Source: Acidobacteriota bacterium
GTDB lineage: Bacteria > Acidobacteriota > UBA890 > WLXD01
Assembly (NCBI GenBank): GCA_029263335.1
Contig: JAJCXS010000097.1
Location: forward strand, 1-40,562
DNA: 40,562 nt
Direction: 5' to 3'
In this document: in pieces, positions 5,014 through 17,826 of the stretch
Position numbering within the stretch: the stretch's first letter is position 1
Layout of the letters: every line of letters begins with the position of its first letter
Notes under the pieces: generated by a model
Told to the model about the DNA's origin: nothing
What the model saw: the letters and a program-made list of their open reading frames with translations, nothing else
Database searches by the model: none
Made by a program: the position numbers and the translations under genes

Positions 5014-7325
5014 GCCAGCCTCCGCCACTTGCGCAGGGTCCACTCGGTGCCGATCATGCCGATGAAGACGAAGAAGAAGATCGGCATGTCCCAGAGATCA
5101 AGAACCTCGGTGACTGTCGTTCCGCCATCGGTAAAGGCGATGTCGCCAGCAAGTTCGTCCAGGTTGGCGGCGGTGTAGAAGCGTCCACTGGTCTCCTCGG
5201 CGACCCGCGTCAACAGCTCGCGGTTCATTTCCGCCCCGAAGAACTCCTGCGTCAGTTCCGTCGCCTGCCCGGTCGCCACATCCTGGCCCAGGGGGCCCTC
5301 GCGCCCCTCCGCGACCACGCTGACGGTGTAGAAGCCGTCGGCCTCGGCCACAAACGACGCCGCGTAGCGACCATCAACGTCGACGGTCCAGGCGAGGTCG
5401 AGCGCCTCCACCTCTCCGTCCGGTCCGGTAACCAGTGCGCGAACCTGCGCGTCGTTGACCGCCAGATAGGTATCGTCGAAGACATCGGTCAACACGGCCA
5501 CCGTTTCGCCCGGGGCGAAGCGCTCGCGCCCGAGTCGCGCTCGGACCTGGCCGGAAACGTCCGCCACCAGCCAACGGAGCATTTGCTGCCAGAAGGTCTC
5601 GTGCGTCATGTCCTCCAGCGGCACGTCGCCGTGCATCTGCCATTGCCATGTATCGGCTACGGTGAGCGCGATCGACTTGCCGGCACCATAACGCTGGTAG
5701 GCCAAGACGGCCTGAGCCTCCTCGAGCCCTTCGGCGTTGCCATCGAGAAGCGAGGCTGCGCCGGGCTTGATTCGGGTGACGCGGTTCACCGCCAGCAACG
5801 GCGGCATGGTCTCCCAGCGTGCCGCGCTCTCCTCGGCGCTCGCGCCGAACTGCACCACCGGGTGGGAGCGGCCAAACAACGTCGGCACGACATCTACCTC
5901 CGCGTACCAGGGCTCGGCCGCTGGTCGCGGAGCTTCGATCACGACTGGCAATGCCTCAGCCACCGGCGTCCCGGCGTAGCCACCTTCCGCAAAGGCGTGC
6001 CGACCGCCGAGCGCGAGCAGGCCCCCGCCTCGCTGCGACACGAAGTCGGCGATCATCTGCAGCTGGTCGCGCGTGAAGAAGTCTGCCTCGACGCTGCCCA
6101 GCACCAGGGCGCTGTAGCGATACAGCTCCTCGCGCGTCTTGGGGAACCCGCCGAACAGCTCGTGCTCACCGCCAAACTCTTCGACCGGATCGACGATGAG
6201 GCTCTGGAACTTGTTGGGGGCTGAACGCACAAGGGTCGCCAGGGCGATATTGCCGTCCTCGTGCAGGGCCCGCCGGATGAACGCCACTTCGTGACGAGGT
6301 TCGCCCTCGAAGTAGAGAATGCGAGCCTGCTCATCGCGCACGGTCACGAGCGTTTCGAGTGCGTTGTTCTGTCGCACCATCTCGCCTTCGGCAACCTCGA
6401 TGCGAAAGGTCAGAATGCGCGGGCCCGGATCCTCGGCCACGAAGGTGGCGCGCACCACCGTGCTTTCCCCGGCGCGCGGCAGGGTCACTTCGACCGTGCT
6501 CACGATCCGGCCGCCGTCCTCGACCAGCAACTCCACGGTCTCGCCTTCGTAACCGCGCTGTCGGACGACCACGTCGGCGGCCACGGCAGAGTTCTGCATC
6601 ACCTCGTTCGGTGCCTCGACACGCGTAATCTCGATGTCGCGGGCGAACTCCTCGCGGCCAACGCCGACCACGAACACCGGCACTTTGGCGTCGCGCAGGC
6701 CGTTGAGCGTTTCGGTGAGTCCGCTGCTGTCGTTGTCGGCACCGTCACTCAGCAGAACCAGACCCGATAGCGGTACCCCTCCCAGTTCCTGTCGGCCCGC
6801 CTCGAGCGCACGCCCGACGTTGGTGCGCAGCCCCTCGAAACGAAGCTCTTCGAGGCCTTCGAGCCGGCGCGTCGCGTCTGAAAACGAGAACAGGCGCAGG
6901 CGAAACCTCTCTTCGAGCTGCCCGAACAACCCCGAACCGCCAGGGTCCAGCCAGGCGCTTACCTGCTCGGCGCGCGTCTGAGCACCGCCCTCGGCCACGC
7001 GCATGCTGCGGGAGTCGTCGACCAGCACGCCGACGAAGTTCTGCTGCGGCACGGCGGTCGCTACGACCAACGAGGGGCGCAGCAACACGAAGCAGCCGAG
7101 CGCCACGACAGCTGCCCTCAGCACCGCCAGAGCGAGTCGGCTCCTCGGCGTGCTGCGGCCGCCGATCGCGCGGTACTGGCGAACGATCGGCACGGCAAGG
7201 GCCAACAGGAGGCCGGCGGCCACCATCGAACCCGCCGTTGCCGCCAGAACCACCTCGCCTCTGGCAAACACAAAGGGCTTGTACTTGAAGAGGAACTCAA
7301 AGAGCGATTCGAGGACCGGCGGCAT
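5010..7325 (-). CDS. Membrane-anchored vWA / glutamine-amidotransferase-like protein (BatA-like)
   Basis: This 771-residue inner-membrane protein has two transmembrane helices near the N-terminus (about residues 23-45 and 62-85). A vWA domain follows with a full MIDAS metal site: D103-x-S105-x-S107 in VDDSRSM, a later GLRTNVG threonine, and LLSDGADN. Next come a beta-sandwich region and a GATase1-like domain (about 300-500, starting ILYFEGEPRHEVAF), then a second beta-rich region. One helix lies at the very C-terminus (MPIFFFVFIGMIG) before a basic tail. This is the arrangement of vWA proteins encoded with MoxR ATPases and DUF4159. The start at 7325 shares one base with the TGA of the upstream DUF4159 gene (TGATG); an in-frame ATG at 7415 would lie inside that gene. 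Probable partner of the MoxR ATPase, with most of its mass in the periplasm. Confidence 0.88.
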   Translation of the reverse strand: MPPVLESLFEFLFKYKPFVFARGEVVLAATAGSMVAAGLLLALAVPIVRQYRAIGGRSTPRSRLALAVLRAAVVALGCFVLLRPSLVVATAVPQQNFVGVLVDDSRSMRVAEGGAQTRAEQVSAWLDPGGSGLFGQLEERFRLRLFSFSDATRRLEGLEELRFEGLRTNVGRALEAGRQELGGVPLSGLVLLSDGADNDSSGLTETLNGLRDAKVPVFVVGVGREEFARDIEITRVEAPNEVMQNSAVAADVVVRQRGYEGETVELLVEDGGRIVSTVEVTLPRAGESTVVRATFVAEDPGPRILTFRIEVAEGEMVRQNNALETLVTVRDEQARILYFEGEPRHEVAFIRRALHEDGNIALATLVRSAPNKFQSLIVDPVEEFGGEHELFGGFPKTREELYRYSALVLGSVEADFFTRDQLQMIADFVSQRGGGLLALGGRHAFAEGGYAGTPVAEALPVVIEAPRPAAEPWYAEVDVVPTLFGRSHPVVQFGASAEESAARWETMPPLLAVNRVTRIKPGAASLLDGNAEGLEEAQAVLAYQRYGAGKSIALTVADTWQWQMHGDVPLEDMTHETFWQQMLRWLVADVSGQVRARLGRERFAPGETVAVLTDVFDDTYLAVNDAQVRALVTGPDGEVEALDLAWTVDVDGRYAASFVAEADGFYTVSVVAEGREGPLGQDVATGQATELTQEFFGAEMNRELLTRVAEETSGRFYTAANLDELAGDIAFTDGGTTVTEVLDLWDMPIFFFVFIGMIGTEWTLRKWRRLA

Positions 7326-8158
7326 CAGTGGCTCATCGAGTAGAGGACGGCATTCACCGCCAACTGGTAGGCGAAATTGGAGTACTGCAGCGGATAGTAG
7401 GGGTTGTCCACCCATTCCCAGGCGTCGCCGAGATCAGTATTCCAGTTGATCAGTACGAGCAGTCGTCCGTCGTCGTCAAAGATCGCGCGTACGTAAGGTA
7501 CGTAACCATCCTGTTCCCAGGTGGGTCCACCCTGCACGATCCGCACGCTGGGAACCTGTTCGATGTGGTCGATGTCATAGAAGCTGTGGAAGATCGGGTG
7601 ATCGAGCGCCAGGTCGACGATCCGATGTTCGGGCAGCACGCGGGCGATTTCGATCTCGAAGTTGCGCCATTCGTAGCTGCCCCAGAAGTCGTCGATGAAT
7701 AGAAACCCGCCAGCCAGCAAATAACGACGCAGGGCATCGACCTCCTCGGGCCGCATGCTCATGTAACCGACCTCGAGCGCGTAGAGAAACGGATATCGGG
7801 ATAGCTCCGGATCGGTAATCGGGATGGCGTTATCGCCCTGGAAGGCGTCGATGTTCGTGAGCCGCCGCAGGCCGAAAACAAACTGGCGATCGGCCTTGGG
7901 ATAGTCGATCGCCCAGGTGCCTCCGCCTCGATACCCGCCCGTGCTCGTGTACATCGCGCGCGTGAAGTAGAACTCGTGCGGCGTCGAGTCTCGCGCGACG
8001 AGAGAGCCGCCCCGATCGAGCGCGCGGCGCACATCACCCAGTTGGGCCGGCGCGGCCCCAAAGGTAGCCGCGCTCGTAGCGACCGCGTGGGCGCCGCCAG
8101 CGAGGGCGAGCGCAGCGCAGCCAGTCGCGCTAAACCGCGCGAGCCATCCCTTCTTCAC
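7325..8158 (-). CDS. Secreted DUF4159 domain protein (copy 1, first gene of the operon)
   Basis: This protein has 277 residues if translated from the GTG at 8158, preferred because GGAAGG lies four bases upstream and because it gives a clean signal peptide (VKKGWLARFSATGCAALALA, then GGAHA). In-frame ATGs at 8248 and 8209 would add a hydrophilic extension. The DUF4159 domain carries IDYPKADRQF, ITDPELSRYPFLYALEVGY, LAGGFLFIDDFWG, LDHPIFHSFYDIDH and a terminal NAVLYSMSH. Most of the protein aligns by eye with the other DUF4159 protein of the operon. It is the promoter-proximal gene and shares one base with the vWA gene that follows. The family has no assigned biochemical role; location is expected to be periplasmic. 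Confidence 0.87.
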   Translation of the reverse strand: MKKGWLARFSATGCAALALAGGAHAVATSAATFGAAPAQLGDVRRALDRGGSLVARDSTPHEFYFTRAMYTSTGGYRGGGTWAIDYPKADRQFVFGLRRLTNIDAFQGDNAIPITDPELSRYPFLYALEVGYMSMRPEEVDALRRYLLAGGFLFIDDFWGSYEWRNFEIEIARVLPEHRIVDLALDHPIFHSFYDIDHIEQVPSVRIVQGGPTWEQDGYVPYVRAIFDDDGRLLVLINWNTDLGDAWEWVDNPYYPLQYSNFAYQLAVNAVLYSMSH

Positions 8159-8282
8159 GGAGCCTTCCCGGGGAGGGTCGCGATACGCTCGGACGCTGAC
8201 GCAGGTCATGCCCTGCGGTCCGACGAGAATCCCGTCCAGCGCCCCCACGATCGAGTCAATTACATATTCAGACTAACAGTTT

Positions 8283-9321: not shown

Positions 9322-10518
9322 CTAGTTACCCTTCCACCACGAAGACGCGGTGCGCCGCCGCCCACCGCCCAGGGCGCGATCGAGCCACAGGGCAACTCGG
9401 CGCAGCGGGGATCCGGCCAGGCGTCGCCACGCTGTGAACAACCAGCCCGGCCAGCCCTTGTTGTAGGGGCAAACACGAATGCAGATCGAGCAATCGCTGT
9501 TCTGTCTCTCCCAGAAGCCGAAGCACTTCTCAGCGTCGACGGTCCACTTCTTCACCCCGACGATGTTGGACCGGTTGTAGGTCACGTCGCTCGGGTCTCC
9601 GGCGGGAATCGCGCCGACGGGACACTCCCGCACGCACAGGTTGCACTGGTCGCAGAACTCGCGCACACCGAAACTCCGAGGAGCATCCAGGGTCATCGGC
9701 AGGTCGGTGAAGATCTTCCCGAAGCGCACGCGGGGCCCGAACTCTGGCGTGATGACCAGCCCCAGCTTGCCGTACTCGCCAAGCCCGGCCTTGATCGCCA
9801 ACGGGATCGCCAACGCGGTGTCGTTGAGGTTGGGAACCGCCTGGTAGCCGAGGTTACGAATGTACTGGGAGAGCGCCAACAGGGTCAGCGTATCCTCCGA
9901 GTACCCCCATCCCGTCGCCGTGCCGCTCAAGGCCGACGGCACCGTCGCGATGAGGCCGTGATCCATGGCCTTGGCAACGACGATGACGTGCGACAGCCCC
10001 CCGGGTTGCTCGTTCGGTTTGGGACTCTCCCGGACACGGCTGTACTTGTGGCTGTATAGCCACCGCTCGTCGTAGTCGGTAATGCCGACAAGATCGGCGC
10101 CGAACAGCTTCGCCACCCGCTTGATCTCGGTCGCTGCCGCTGCCGGCGACTCGAACTCCGCCTGCTCGGCAGGTGCGTCGCGAAGCGCGGTGAGCTCGTC
10201 GAGATAGCCCTCGCGCCGATCCTCCTCTTCCCGCCTTTCGGCAAAGACGTCGGTCACGTGCCACGAGGCGTTACGGAGCGCGTAGTCACGTTGGGTGAAA
10301 CCGTCGACCGTTCGCCAATTCGCCAGCACGTCACGGTAGGTCGCATAGAAGCGATCCGTCGATTCGGAGCGAATCTCTGGATCCCAGAACGACCGGCAGA
10401 AGATATCGTCGCGCTGGCTGAACCGCTCGAAGGTCGGCTGCACCTCGAAACTGGCTGCCGTTCCCAAGCCGAGTGACGCCTCGTCGGGACGCTCGGGTAA
10501 ACGTGAGCGATCGGGCAT
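9322..10518 (-). CDS. Cytoplasmic reductive-dehalogenase-like corrinoid/iron-sulfur protein (no TAT signal)
   Basis: This 398-residue protein has the catalytic core of the RdhA family, related to epoxyqueuosine reductase. It carries the GWGYSEDTLTLLALSQYIR segment (Tyr206 at the position of the conserved RdhA tyrosine), LGYQAVPNLNDTALAIPLAI, AGLGEYGKLGLVITPEFGPR, then two iron-sulfur motifs: C289-x2-C292-x2-C295-x3-C299-P and C332 ... C343-x2-C346-x3-C350-P. All eight cysteines are present, so two [4Fe-4S] clusters are expected, with a corrinoid bound by the preceding domain. It lacks a twin-arginine leader, and no RdhB anchor gene is nearby, so it is unlikely to be a respiratory dehalogenase. 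It follows the DUF885-like gene by 15 bp and is probably co-transcribed. Substrate unknown; cobamide dependence and halide chemistry are inferred from the family only. Confidence 0.83.
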   Translation of the reverse strand: MPDRSRLPERPDEASLGLGTAASFEVQPTFERFSQRDDIFCRSFWDPEIRSESTDRFYATYRDVLANWRTVDGFTQRDYALRNASWHVTDVFAERREEEDRREGYLDELTALRDAPAEQAEFESPAAAATEIKRVAKLFGADLVGITDYDERWLYSHKYSRVRESPKPNEQPGGLSHVIVVAKAMDHGLIATVPSALSGTATGWGYSEDTLTLLALSQYIRNLGYQAVPNLNDTALAIPLAIKAGLGEYGKLGLVITPEFGPRVRFGKIFTDLPMTLDAPRSFGVREFCDQCNLCVRECPVGAIPAGDPSDVTYNRSNIVGVKKWTVDAEKCFGFWERQNSDCSICIRVCPYNKGWPGWLFTAWRRLAGSPLRRVALWLDRALGGGRRRTASSWWKGN

Positions 10519-10533
10519 CAGCGAACTCCGGAC

Positions 10534-12240
10534 CTAGTTGCGTCTCGCGGGGGCGTTGCCTGTCAGTTCCCACCGCACCATCGAGACCGGAATCACGCCG
10601 ACGGCAGCAAACTCGTCCATGAAACGCTTGATCGAAAAATCGTCGCCGAGTTGGATGGCACGCTCCGCGAGGAGCTGTTCGATCTCGATCTTGCCCATCA
10701 CGTAGCTGATGCCGTATCCCGGCTGGGTCAGGTAGAAGTGCTCCTCGCCGTTGATCGTCGCGCCATCGGCAGGCAACCATCCGCGAGGCGTCCACCGGGA
10801 GGCGAACTCCACCGCCTCCTGATGAGTCCATTCGTTGCCGTGCTGCATGAGCCCCCCGATCGCTCGCGCGGCCCGCTGCGCCAGCAGAATCCAGATCAGC
10901 TCGCGCGAGCGCGGCCGGTCGTCGAACGCTCCCGCGTGCATCATCATCTCCTCGAAGCCGGTAGCCATCCCCTCGGACCGACCGTCATAGATGTTGTACA
11001 GCGCCGGGGTGCGGCGGATCGGGCTCTCGTGCGGTTCGTACTTCATGCGCGCCAGATCGAACCAGTGGTAGCCGTGCGTGCGCATGACCTCGCCATCGCG
11101 ATACCCGACCTCGGAGAAGAAACCGCGGAGCCCATCCTCCCGCTGCGGCGGCGAGAAACTCCCGAGGCGCTCTCGTAGCGCCTGGTCCATGTAGTCGCGC
11201 AGGCTCATGACTTCCTCTTCGTCGAGAAACTCCATGAACCCGTCCACGCCGGCGTGATGCCCGGCGTCGTGTTCTTCGGCGTTCTGGTAGCGCGACAATT
11301 CAGGGAGATCGCGATTGCGATTCTCTTCGAGACGCAGGGAGGCGTTCGCTCGCCAGAGCTCACGCTTCATCATCGTGAGCGCCTCCTCCCACGTATAGGG
11401 CACGAGATGGACGTTCTGCAGGTACCAGCTGTAGTTGTCCTTGCCCACACCGGACAGCCCGTTCTTGTACTGGACCTGGCTCTCGACCCAATCGGCGAAC
11501 TGGTCGGTCGCAACGACGGCCTCGCCCAGTGCGCTATCGAGCGCGTCGCTGGCGCCGGAGACCTCCTCCCGATACGCGGCCAATTCGCGGCTTTGGCGGC
11601 GAATCGAGCCGACGCCCAAACGCCACAGGTCGCGCCCGGGGCCGATGAGATTATCGCGGGCCTGCTCCAGAAGGGCCGGGATAATGGCAAATCGCTCGGC
11701 CAACTCGGCTGCATCGCCCTCGGAGAGGGGGTAGTCGTACTCCCAGGTGTCGATCCAGGTGTGGATCACCGGCCCCTCGTGCGCCGGCACGTCCGACTGC
11801 GACGTAAACATCATCACGTAGAAGGCCGGATTGTTGGCCCACGGCTTGCGCACCCGATGATCGAAGTCGAGCCCGTTCATCTCGGCACGCACCAGTTGCC
11901 AATCGATCTGCTGCGGCAACGGCCACTCCGCGACATCGATCGCTTCGAGCCTGGACAGATACCCGGGAAGGGCCTGCCGCTGTTGGGCCATTGCCTCGGC
12001 CGAGTAGTCGGGCACTCCATTGACCAGGGCCGGTGCCTCGAACTCACGCCAGTCCTCGAACAGCGCCACGAGTGCCGCATAGTCGTCGATCGGAGTCGCG
12101 CCCGTGGATGCCCCCGGGGAAAGCACAAGGGCCGCGACAGCGAAGGCGGCCATCAATCTTCCCCGGGCCATGGTGCGCACTGCGCTCGATGCGCCACACG
12201 ATACGGTCAGCTCACGGCGCGAGGTCTTCTCAAATGACAT
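10534..12240 (-). CDS. Secreted DUF885-like protein, metal motif degenerate
   Basis: This 568-residue protein starts at the ATG at 12240 (GGAG six bases upstream); an internal ATG at 12171 would give a shorter, cleaner signal peptide (MARGRLMAAFAVAALVLSPG). DUF885 features include the mid-region LGVGSIRRQSRELAAYREEV, DNYSWYLQNVHLVPYTWEEAL, and a C-terminal block YLTQPGYGISYVMGKIEIEQLL ... GVIPVSMVRWEL that matches the family ending. DUF885 proteins are peptidase-like, and their usual HE..PGH metal motif should precede an EG.A.Y.E segment. Here the equivalent stretch reads PHESPIRR (His about 404) before EGMATGFEEMMMH, so the second histidine is missing. An unrelated EEHDAGHH cluster lies earlier. 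It may be non-catalytic or use other ligands. It is followed 15 bp later by the dehalogenase-like gene. Confidence 0.78.
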   Translation of the reverse strand: MSFEKTSRRELTVSCGASSAVRTMARGRLMAAFAVAALVLSPGASTGATPIDDYAALVALFEDWREFEAPALVNGVPDYSAEAMAQQRQALPGYLSRLEAIDVAEWPLPQQIDWQLVRAEMNGLDFDHRVRKPWANNPAFYVMMFTSQSDVPAHEGPVIHTWIDTWEYDYPLSEGDAAELAERFAIIPALLEQARDNLIGPGRDLWRLGVGSIRRQSRELAAYREEVSGASDALDSALGEAVVATDQFADWVESQVQYKNGLSGVGKDNYSWYLQNVHLVPYTWEEALTMMKRELWRANASLRLEENRNRDLPELSRYQNAEEHDAGHHAGVDGFMEFLDEEEVMSLRDYMDQALRERLGSFSPPQREDGLRGFFSEVGYRDGEVMRTHGYHWFDLARMKYEPHESPIRRTPALYNIYDGRSEGMATGFEEMMMHAGAFDDRPRSRELIWILLAQRAARAIGGLMQHGNEWTHQEAVEFASRWTPRGWLPADGATINGEEHFYLTQPGYGISYVMGKIEIEQLLAERAIQLGDDFSIKRFMDEFAAVGVIPVSMVRWELTGNAPARRN

Positions 12241-12517
12241 CGACAACTCCAATCGGGCTTGGATTTCGGGGTATTGGTCCACTGCCGAGGCCATGGGTGA
12301 ACCACGCGCCGTGCGCCGCCCTGGCGACGCACGTCACGGCCGCACTGTAGACGATTGCCACGCCAGTGCCCAGGAGCCGAAGATCAACTTGTTGAAACCG
12401 AATGCGGACTTCCAGCGTCCAATCTAACAACGAGGCGCGGCTGGACGGAGTCAGGCAATCTACGGTCGGCGCCGCCGAGCAAACCCGGCTGCCGCACCAG
12501 CCGTCTGAGGAACACGC

Positions 12518-16545: not shown

Positions 16546-17826
16546 CTAACCGTTGAGAGCCCCTGCAAGGATGTCCATGTCCTGAGGCGTGTTGTAGATC
16601 GCCGGTGATATCCGCAGTCGCGGGCGCTGCCGCATGGGTGCGCGGGCGCCATCGCCTCCCGGCGAGGGGCCACTGCCGACCGCGATCTTGGCCTCGCGTA
16701 GCCGCTCGGACACCCCGTCAGGGTCACTGACTAGGAACGTCACGATGGGCGAGTCATCGGTCTGGGGCGATAGGCAGGGGAATCGCTGCGCATCGATCTG
16801 GTCGAGCAGTCGCCGGTTCAGCGCTACCGAGTGAGCCTGCAGATTCTCGACGCCGATTCTTTCGATCAGGCGCAGGCCTTCGCGCAAGGCAGCGTAACCA
16901 AGGTACCCCACATGGCCGGGCTGATAGCGCCTGGCATCCTGCCTCGGGGCCGAGGCGGCCACCTCCTCGACCTCGGGGTCCATGTCGTCCATCCAGGGCT
17001 CGTAGTTGGCCCACGTACGACCAGGGAAGAGACGGTCCTCGAGAACCGTTCCCTGCAGTTCTTCGCGCACATACAGGTAGCCCGCGCCATGTGGGCCGAA
17101 CAGCCACTTGTAGCCATTCCCTGCAGCGAAGTCGATCCCCATCTCGCGCACATCGATCGGGACGATACCCGCCGCCTGGATTACGTCCGCATAGACGTAG
17201 GCGCCGTGCGCGTGGGCGATGTCCGCCAGTTCACGGATCGGCTCGATGTGGCCGTTGATGTTCGACACCAGGGTGACCGCCACGAGCGCCGTGTCTTCGT
17301 CAATCGCCGCACGCATAGCGTCGAGATCCGTCCGCCAGTCGACCGTCGGCACGATGCGCACATCCACACCGCGTCGCCGCAACCCGATCAGGTGCCGCAA
17401 CGAACCGCCAAAATGGAGGTCGTTCGTTACCACGTTGCCCCCCGCTCTCAGCGCCGGGAGTCCGTCCAGGACGATCTGCTCGCCAGCCTTGGTGCAGTGA
17501 ACGAAGGCTATCTCGCTGGTGCGAGCGCCCAGGAGCCGCGCCAGTGCCTCGCGCGCCTCCTCGTGCCGGGCCCGCTCCACACGCCCGCGATCATCGCCCG
17601 GGCCGAGTCGCCAGTACTCCTCGTACTGATGCAGCCCGGCCGCAGCGAAATCACCAAGGGGCGTTCCGGCCGCGGCGCCGAGGTATATGTCGCGCTCGAG
17701 TCGCGGGAACAGGTCGCGAAACTCGTCGCCACTCTGTCCCATCGCGAACTTCGACAACGGCTCGGGGTGCCAGGCGGCCGCTGCCACGCTACCTGTACCC
17801 GAGGCGAGAAACTCGCGACGGTTCAT
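16546..17826 (-). CDS. TAT-exported PLP-dependent aminotransferase, class V
   Basis: This 426-residue fold-type I PLP enzyme belongs to the cysteine desulfurase/isopenicillin-N-epimerase group. The N-terminus MNRREFLASGTGSVAAAAW is a textbook twin-arginine leader, so the folded, cofactor-loaded enzyme should be exported. Visible motifs are the Schiff-base lysine in NGYKWLFGPHGAGYLYV (K240), the aspartate/gln pair in YVYADVIQAAG, AFVHCTKAGEQIV, and the C-terminal PRLRISPAIYNT (arginine binding the substrate carboxylate). Its ATG overlaps the yaaA stop (ATGA), and a glycosidase-like gene follows 12 bp later. The absence of the Cys-loop typical of NifS/IscS argues against a housekeeping cysteine desulfurase. 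An epimerase, racemase or lyase acting on an amino acid is possible; the substrate is unknown. Confidence 0.88.
   Translation of the reverse strand: MNRREFLASGTGSVAAAAWHPEPLSKFAMGQSGDEFRDLFPRLERDIYLGAAAGTPLGDFAAAGLHQYEEYWRLGPGDDRGRVERARHEEAREALARLLGARTSEIAFVHCTKAGEQIVLDGLPALRAGGNVVTNDLHFGGSLRHLIGLRRRGVDVRIVPTVDWRTDLDAMRAAIDEDTALVAVTLVSNINGHIEPIRELADIAHAHGAYVYADVIQAAGIVPIDVREMGIDFAAGNGYKWLFGPHGAGYLYVREELQGTVLEDRLFPGRTWANYEPWMDDMDPEVEEVAASAPRQDARRYQPGHVGYLGYAALREGLRLIERIGVENLQAHSVALNRRLLDQIDAQRFPCLSPQTDDSPIVTFLVSDPDGVSERLREAKIAVGSGPSPGGDGARAPMRQRPRLRISPAIYNTPQDMDILAGALNG

Follow-up and report, generated by a model that had tools for sequence, protein, structure and literature searches.

What would a bacterium do with a reductive dehalogenase homologue (RdhA) that has no evident route to the membrane? 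The question is raised by a gene in a 40,562-nucleotide stretch of contig JAJCXS010000097.1 from an Acidobacteriota bacterium, the whole of which is referred to here as the window. An earlier note, made from the sequence alone, had described an RdhA of catabolic or cytoplasmic type that retains the conserved blocks of the family, lacks a twin-arginine (TAT) leader and an adjacent rdhB, and is paired with a DUF885-like secreted protein. We propose, with a probability of roughly 70%, that its product is an active dehalogenase like T7RdhA, one that is cytoplasmic, soluble, and cobamide dependent and that serves catabolism or detoxification.

The gene is a single ORF with an ATG start that codes for 398 amino acids (Table 1). 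Its product passes TIGR02486, the NCBIfam model for reductive dehalogenases, with 164.1 bits against a cut-off of 160.35. The Pfam Dehalogenase model PF13486 is narrowly missed (22.9 bits against 24.3, with profile positions 207-306 matched); therefore, membership in that family is not claimed, and the filing of the protein rests on TIGR02486, the tree, and individual residues. Three Pfam Fe-S models (Fer4_7, Fer4_16, and Fer4) score above their cut-offs, and no reductase domain was found in the Pfam scan of the 398 residues. Both RdhA Fe-S motifs, CxxCxxCxxxCP and CxxCxxxCP, are found (C289-C299 and C332/C343-C350), and the eight Fe-S cysteines (289, 292, 295, 299, 332, 343, 346, and 350) are accompanied by an extra one, C41. 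Together with the Tyr206 region and the AGLGEYG...ITPEFGPR block, which are also found, these cysteines bear out the inventory given in the earlier note. Alignments of 10, 26, and 24 rows show no variation at the eight cysteines or at Y206, N232, R265, and W336. Moreover, the gene is under purifying selection, as evidenced by a comparison with the RdhA of a sister in the same genus (locus L016), in which dN is 0.15 and dS is 1.50 (dN/dS about 0.1) and 195 of the 307 base differences fall at third positions; therefore, the gene is maintained.

Table 1. Positions, within the window, of the RdhA gene, its conserved residues, and the adjacent DUF885 gene
Feature	Position	Strand	Evidence
RdhA homologue, single-domain, TAT-less, T7RdhA-like, 398 aa	9322..10518	-	TIGR02486, PDB matches to PceA, tree, T7RdhA residue fingerprint
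Second Fe-S motif C332-x10-C343-x2-C346-x3-C350-P	9466..9525	-	Invariant in three alignments
First Fe-S motif CDQCNLCVRECP, C289, C292, C295, C299	9619..9654	-	Invariant in three alignments
R265, PceA Arg305 equivalent; NpRdhA has Lys	9724..9726	-	Alignment, 66/66 clade rows
N232, PceA Asn272 equivalent	9823..9825	-	Alignment, 66/66 clade rows
Y206, PceA Tyr246 equivalent	9901..9903	-	Alignment, T7RdhA Y213, 66/66 clade rows
R82, T7RdhA R89 (docked-substrate contact)	10273..10275	-	Arg in 66/66 clade rows
DUF885 protein, hydrophobic N-terminus by eye, probably secreted	10534..12294	-	PF05960 95.4 bits

Searches of solved structures place the protein nearest to respiratory enzymes. With the single sequence as the query, the best matches were 8q4h (2.5e-50) and PceA (4uqu, 4.4e-49), followed by NpRdhA (6.2e-30) and QueG (5.6e-8), and a ten-row profile, in which two of the ten rows were RdhA from outside the clade described below, returned PceA (8.1e-83), 8q4h (1.8e-82), NpRdhA (3.3e-44), and QueG (1.9e-16). 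With e-values of this order and the dN/dS ratio against the sister, the RdhA match is no chance likeness. An AlphaFold2 model built from a 24-row alignment reached medium confidence (pLDDT 64, pTM 0.71); Foldseek ranked 8q4h first, and with VIA-align 2 this structure had a Z score of 23.8, compared with roughly 22 for PceA, 20 for NpRdhA, 12 for QueG, and 6.5 for human MMACHC. The model supports an RdhA fold, and the geometry of the pocket lies beyond its reach. The corrinoid pocket, whose loss the earlier note had named as a refutation, was judged by residues and not by geometry, and the active-site and Fe-S residues are kept. The window protein, PceA of Sulfurospirillum multivorans, and 8q4h have in common the fold, the eight cysteines, and equivalents of Tyr246, Asn272, Arg305, and Trp376; W336 aligns with the last of these in the profile-search alignment, in which the chain numbering matches the published PceA numbering. 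Active-site roles in PceA, including that of Tyr246 as the proposed proton donor, are given in the accessible part of PMC5500849. Unlike PceA and 8q4h, the window protein has neither a TAT leader nor an RdhB.

Phylogenetic analysis drew on a contig scan for relatives that yielded 49 loci, using search patterns that favour close ones. A quick tree of 103 rows and a careful tree of 83 rows, from both of which repeats and rows ending before window residue 340 were excluded, agree on the clade to which the protein belongs; for the 83-row tree, 27 near-duplicate rows were removed and the L052 family contributed seven further rows. In that tree, the window protein sits within a 43-row clade supported at 100/100, together with T7-like rows from Acidimicrobiia. 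QueG (13 rows) splits off at 100/100, and the five NpRdhA-type references form a group of their own at 100/100, which is united with transmembrane-type rows at 98/93. The clade falls weakly on the respiratory side of RdhA, with support of 88/68 for its grouping with respiratory RdhA in the 83-row tree and a basal order that is unresolved in the 103-row tree.

By record titles, among which some names of metagenome-assembled genomes are possibly wrong, the clade spans Acidobacteriota, Gemmatimonadota, Binatota, Actinomycetota, and Pseudomonadota. Many of the record names among the scanned loci are ones that we take to be sponge derived; no enrichment in sponges is claimed. RdhA profile matches at 1e-40 occur in 52 of 297 Acidobacteriota genomes, with up to six candidates scored per genome, and clade members, read from scores of at least 572.9 bits, occur in 17 of the 297. 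The next score below these 17 genomes, 522.1 bits, belongs to a paralogue that is 36% identical to the window protein. One acidobacterial genome (G046, with loci L136 and L141) has eight RdhA matches, one of them a clade member, which by eye adjoins genes resembling those of tripartite tricarboxylate transporters; another (G252) has at least six matches at 1e-40. In a literature search made mostly outside subscription journals, we recognised no paper on the window protein or on a TAT-less RdhA of these acidobacteria, and the one acidobacterial RdhA listed in the accessible part of PMC6797604 is of the transmembrane type.

The absence of an export signal, as the earlier note had it, holds for the gene and for its clade. 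The stop-to-stop frame is only 403 amino acids long, with five codons before the ATG, and therefore has room for no twin-arginine leader. RR pairs occur at residues 95, 101, 365, 373, and 387, none of which is N-terminal, and the most hydrophobic 19-mer reaches only 1.3 on the Kyte-Doolittle scale. Across the clade, up to 90 in-frame residues ahead of the F40 column were tested for an RRxF motif and a hydrophobic 17-mer. The clade lacks a leader and an anchor, with an RRxF/TAT motif in 0/66 rows and a hydrophobic 17-mer in 0/66. The corresponding counts are 7/12 and 0/12 for the TAT/respiratory group, in which some rows are truncated N-terminally, and 0/10 and 10/10 for the transmembrane group. 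No RdhB-like ORF, defined as 45-170 amino acids with at least two hydrophobic segments, touches about 5.3-14.5 kb of the window, so the statement that rdhB is missing next door also proved correct. Lacking both a leader and an anchor, the protein would not act as a terminal reductase of respiration.

NpRdhA and other fused catabolic enzymes (Comamonas pBHB, Nitratireductor, Ruegeria, and Jannaschia) are described as TAT-less in the accessible parts of PMC6797604 and PMC6737245. These enzymes and the window protein have in common the cobamide/Fe-S core and a presumed nonrespiratory role. However, the fused proteins are about 700-1070 amino acids long, compared with 398 for the window protein, and form a separate clade at 100/100; an NpRdhA-type reading is ruled out by length, by domains (there is no fused reductase), and by tree placement. 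The earlier assignment to a catabolic or cytoplasmic type is therefore kept in part: a cytoplasmic catabolic role is the best inference, and the NpRdhA type does not apply. Another comparison is offered by the putative reductive dehalogenases of Asgard archaea, which, according to the accessible part of PMC6737245, have no TAT signal, keep Tyr, Arg, and Asn, and have PceA as their nearest characterised enzyme. By this published description they are like the window protein in all three respects; the thorarchaeotal enzymes, by the same description, are set apart from it by an extra N-terminal Fe-S domain.

The closest counterpart is T7RdhA. When expressed in Escherichia coli, T7RdhA binds a corrinoid and two Fe-S clusters (PMC10008544, Guo et al. 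2023, accessible part), and the same text names residues near the cofactors and the docked substrate. Used as a fingerprint, eleven of these residues match the window protein at 10 of 11 positions at a single offset of -7, whereas no more than 3 agree at the other offsets tried between -12 and +12. T7RdhA residues F47, F64, Y65, Y68, R89, W93, Y213, K258, F340, and W343 are matched, and the one mismatch is L252 in place of T7RdhA H259. Alone among the scanned loci, L169 matches the fingerprint at 11/11 with an ATG exactly at T7RdhA residue 1; this best T7 candidate, with 56% identity to the window protein, is likewise a member of the 100/100 clade. On the strength of the 10/11 fingerprint and of a clade-mate with 11/11, the window protein is therefore filed as T7RdhA-like. 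The place of T7RdhA within the clade is read from fingerprint and relatives, not from its own sequence, so the filing of the window protein with T7RdhA and A6RdhA is best taken as a probable one. These two come from Acidimicrobiaceae, which belong to a different phylum from that of the window. As for their activity, the accessible part of a review (PMC11022551) discusses T7RdhA and A6RdhA as PFAS defluorinating without direct proof and notes no empirical evidence for such a role of T7RdhA.

The host genome, with 310 contigs that total 4.07 Mb and a completeness of 92.7%, contains two cobalamin riboswitches, four PF02310 (B12-binding) hits, three of which are above the cut-off, and three COX1 (haem-copper oxidase) hits; therefore, the host probably uses B12 and probably respires oxygen. 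The link to cobamides that the earlier note had raised thus finds backing in the riboswitches and B12-binding hits. Oxidases are present in 7/7 Acidobacteriota genomes tested. No second RdhA was found in this genome, at its completeness of 92.7%.

For the window protein itself, we infer cobamide binding, location, catalysis, electron donor, and substrate along the following lines. The folded RdhA would enclose two [4Fe-4S] clusters and a cobamide, and a low-potential cytoplasmic donor, putatively a ferredoxin or flavodoxin, would pass electrons through the clusters to generate Co(I). The cobamide could then strip the halogen from a small organohalide, with Y206 giving the proton and R265 and N232 shaping the site. 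The dehalogenated product would enter ordinary catabolism, or the step itself might be one of detoxification. Y206, N232, and R265 are kept in 10/10 and 24/24 rows of two alignments and in all 66 clade rows of a third, which has 94 rows (66 from the clade and 28 from other RdhA).

A further residue bears on the substrate. At position R82, arginine is found in 66/66 clade rows and in only one of the 28 other RdhA rows, and among the positions examined for an amino-acid substrate, R82 stayed clade specific by these counts. In the plasmid-borne Sulfurospirillum SP relative of PceA, this position is occupied by Glu, which would correspond to Glu92 of the upper cavity of PceA. The conserved R82 weakly suggests that the substrate is an anion, for instance a halogenated carboxylate or phenolate. 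D342 was considered as a pocket residue peculiar to the clade that might fit a halogenated amino acid, and it is ruled out because it also occurs in 10/10 transmembrane-type rows and 4/18 others. We know of no demonstrated substrate for the clade. Tentatively, and with the odds rather against it, one might go further and regard the clade as a third RdhA class, neither exported and respiratory nor fused and catabolic, in which a soluble, stand-alone cobamide enzyme across five phyla uses R82 to clamp an anionic natural organohalide (a carboxylate, amino acid, or phenolate). If true, aerobic environmental and host-associated bacteria would dehalogenate natural products intracellularly; several of the hosts can respire oxygen.

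The RdhA scaffold might instead have been kept by a corrinoid Fe-S reductase that acts on a nonhalogenated substrate, in the manner of QueG or of MMACHC-like B12 processing. The core fold is common to QueG and MMACHC, the clade has no known substrate, and no separate QueG was found in the genome of the window. QueG, the epoxyqueuosine reductase, has a distant core fold and Fe-S motifs in common with the window protein. Nevertheless, the protein scores 52.2 bits with the QueG model TIGR00276, for which the cut-off is 200, and falls outside QueG at 100/100; the placement inside QueG that the earlier note had named as a refutation is not what the tree shows. In addition, the dehalogenase Tyr, Asn, and Arg are kept in 66/66 clade rows, and sister genome G001 has a QueG above the cut-off as well as an RdhA of the clade. 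No QueG above the cut-off was found in the host genome (G000), although the two congeneric genomes G001 and G002 each have one; the missing copy may reflect incompleteness of the assembly. As the main reading, QueG and B12 processing are ruled out by scores, tree, and residues, and we regard any such activity of the window protein as unlikely.

The DUF885 gene lies 15 bp upstream of RdhA on the same strand, and the earlier note had taken the two as a pair. One could imagine a functional unit in which the secreted hydrolase frees a metabolite, such as a halogenated amino acid, that is then dehalogenated in the cytoplasm, and DUF885 of the same subfamily does occur near clade members at 12 of 50 loci (the window plus 49, many on short contigs) in three arrangements, with aminotransferases, an M20 peptidase, and sodium symporters recurring as neighbours. 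The first arrangement is that of the window and its sister L016; in the second, at L031, DUF885 lies about 3.7 kb downstream. In the third, found at nine loci of a related Gemmatimonadota gene order, the genes run ABC exporter, RdhA, DUF885, aminotransferase, and TonB receptor, with variants (two opposite-strand calls precede RdhA in L034, L047 lacks a called aminotransferase, and RdhA is uncalled in L026 and L039). Because 9 of the 12 linked loci have this one related order, they are not independent. Moreover, a predicted opposite-strand gene separates RdhA from DUF885 in L016, where the DUF885 protein is 76% identical to that of the window (56-59% in the linked loci beyond the sister). The DUF885 cluster was not seen at 38 of the 50 loci, some of them on short contigs. 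Of 60 relatives, 11 have DUF885 matches, and 6 of these 11 (G003, G004, G005, G007, G015, and G058), some of whose genomes are incomplete, have no RdhA match at 1e-20. DUF885 is thus set aside as a fixed partner, being nonoperonic in the sister and present in relatives in which no RdhA was found; the pairing is therefore at most a loose association, and a dedicated functional pair seems improbable to us.

Elsewhere, the neighbours of clade members include a class III aminotransferase with a TPP enzyme, a sodium-solute symporter with an M20 peptidase, and a PQQ dehydrogenase. At the T7-like locus L170, genes for a P450, an acyl-CoA dehydrogenase, an enoyl-CoA hydratase, and a SnoaL-like protein lie upstream of RdhA, and L176, on the contig of L169, resembles L170 by eye. 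At L172, RdhA lies between a Cys/Met-metabolism PLP enzyme with a CoA-binding protein and a PhyH dioxygenase with a UGSC protein. The gene order at the Ilumatobacteraceae loci L172, L173, and L175 (about 2.3-12 kb) is alike by eye, with families searched in L172 only and no CoA-binding gene called in L175. Genes at the loci were called by a simple GC3-based script, which missed RdhA itself in L026, L031, L039, L055, L064, L133, L135, and L140. No clade-wide conserved operon was found; the gene order differs among Gemmatimonadota, Palauibacter-like, Thermoanaerobaculia, Binatota, and Acidimicrobiia loci. Neighbours are partly catabolic looking yet inconstant; therefore, the neighbourhood does not name the substrate. 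In the window, no gene for an electron donor or an organohalide pathway was seen beside RdhA.

That the protein is a respiratory RdhA serving organohalide respiration, reaching the membrane through some pathway or partner that is not recognised, is very unlikely: although its nearest solved structures are respiratory enzymes and the tree weakly joins the clade to respiratory RdhA (88/68), a TAT motif or hydrophobic leader is found in 0/66 clade rows, an RdhB-like ORF is absent near the gene, and the host genome, at 92.7% completeness, has three COX1 hits and one RdhA.

Enzymes of the kind proposed here, soluble cytoplasmic dehalogenases, are already in print as T7RdhA and A6RdhA, and the group is widespread and little studied. 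What is new is an acidobacterial member, the absence of a leader or anchor in 66/66 clade rows, and the clade-specific arginine. The broad, conserved clade, the oxidase-bearing hosts, and the varied, partly catabolic neighbourhoods suggest that its natural job is the turnover of natural organohalides. Moreover, the clade supplies many orthologues from which an expressible enzyme might be picked to settle the substrate.

Other genes of the window deserve mention in their own right. Two proteins encoded on the minus strand at 504-1346 and 7325-8248 are, by eye, alike and of the DUF4159 type, and lie in the same region as VWA- and GATase-like genes; the Pfam scan, which covered the second, matched it to PF13709. 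A class V aminotransferase at 16546-17826 has, by eye, a TAT-like start (MNRREFLASG), and at L027, L056, and L057, genes of its cluster lie close to RdhA genes of the clade.
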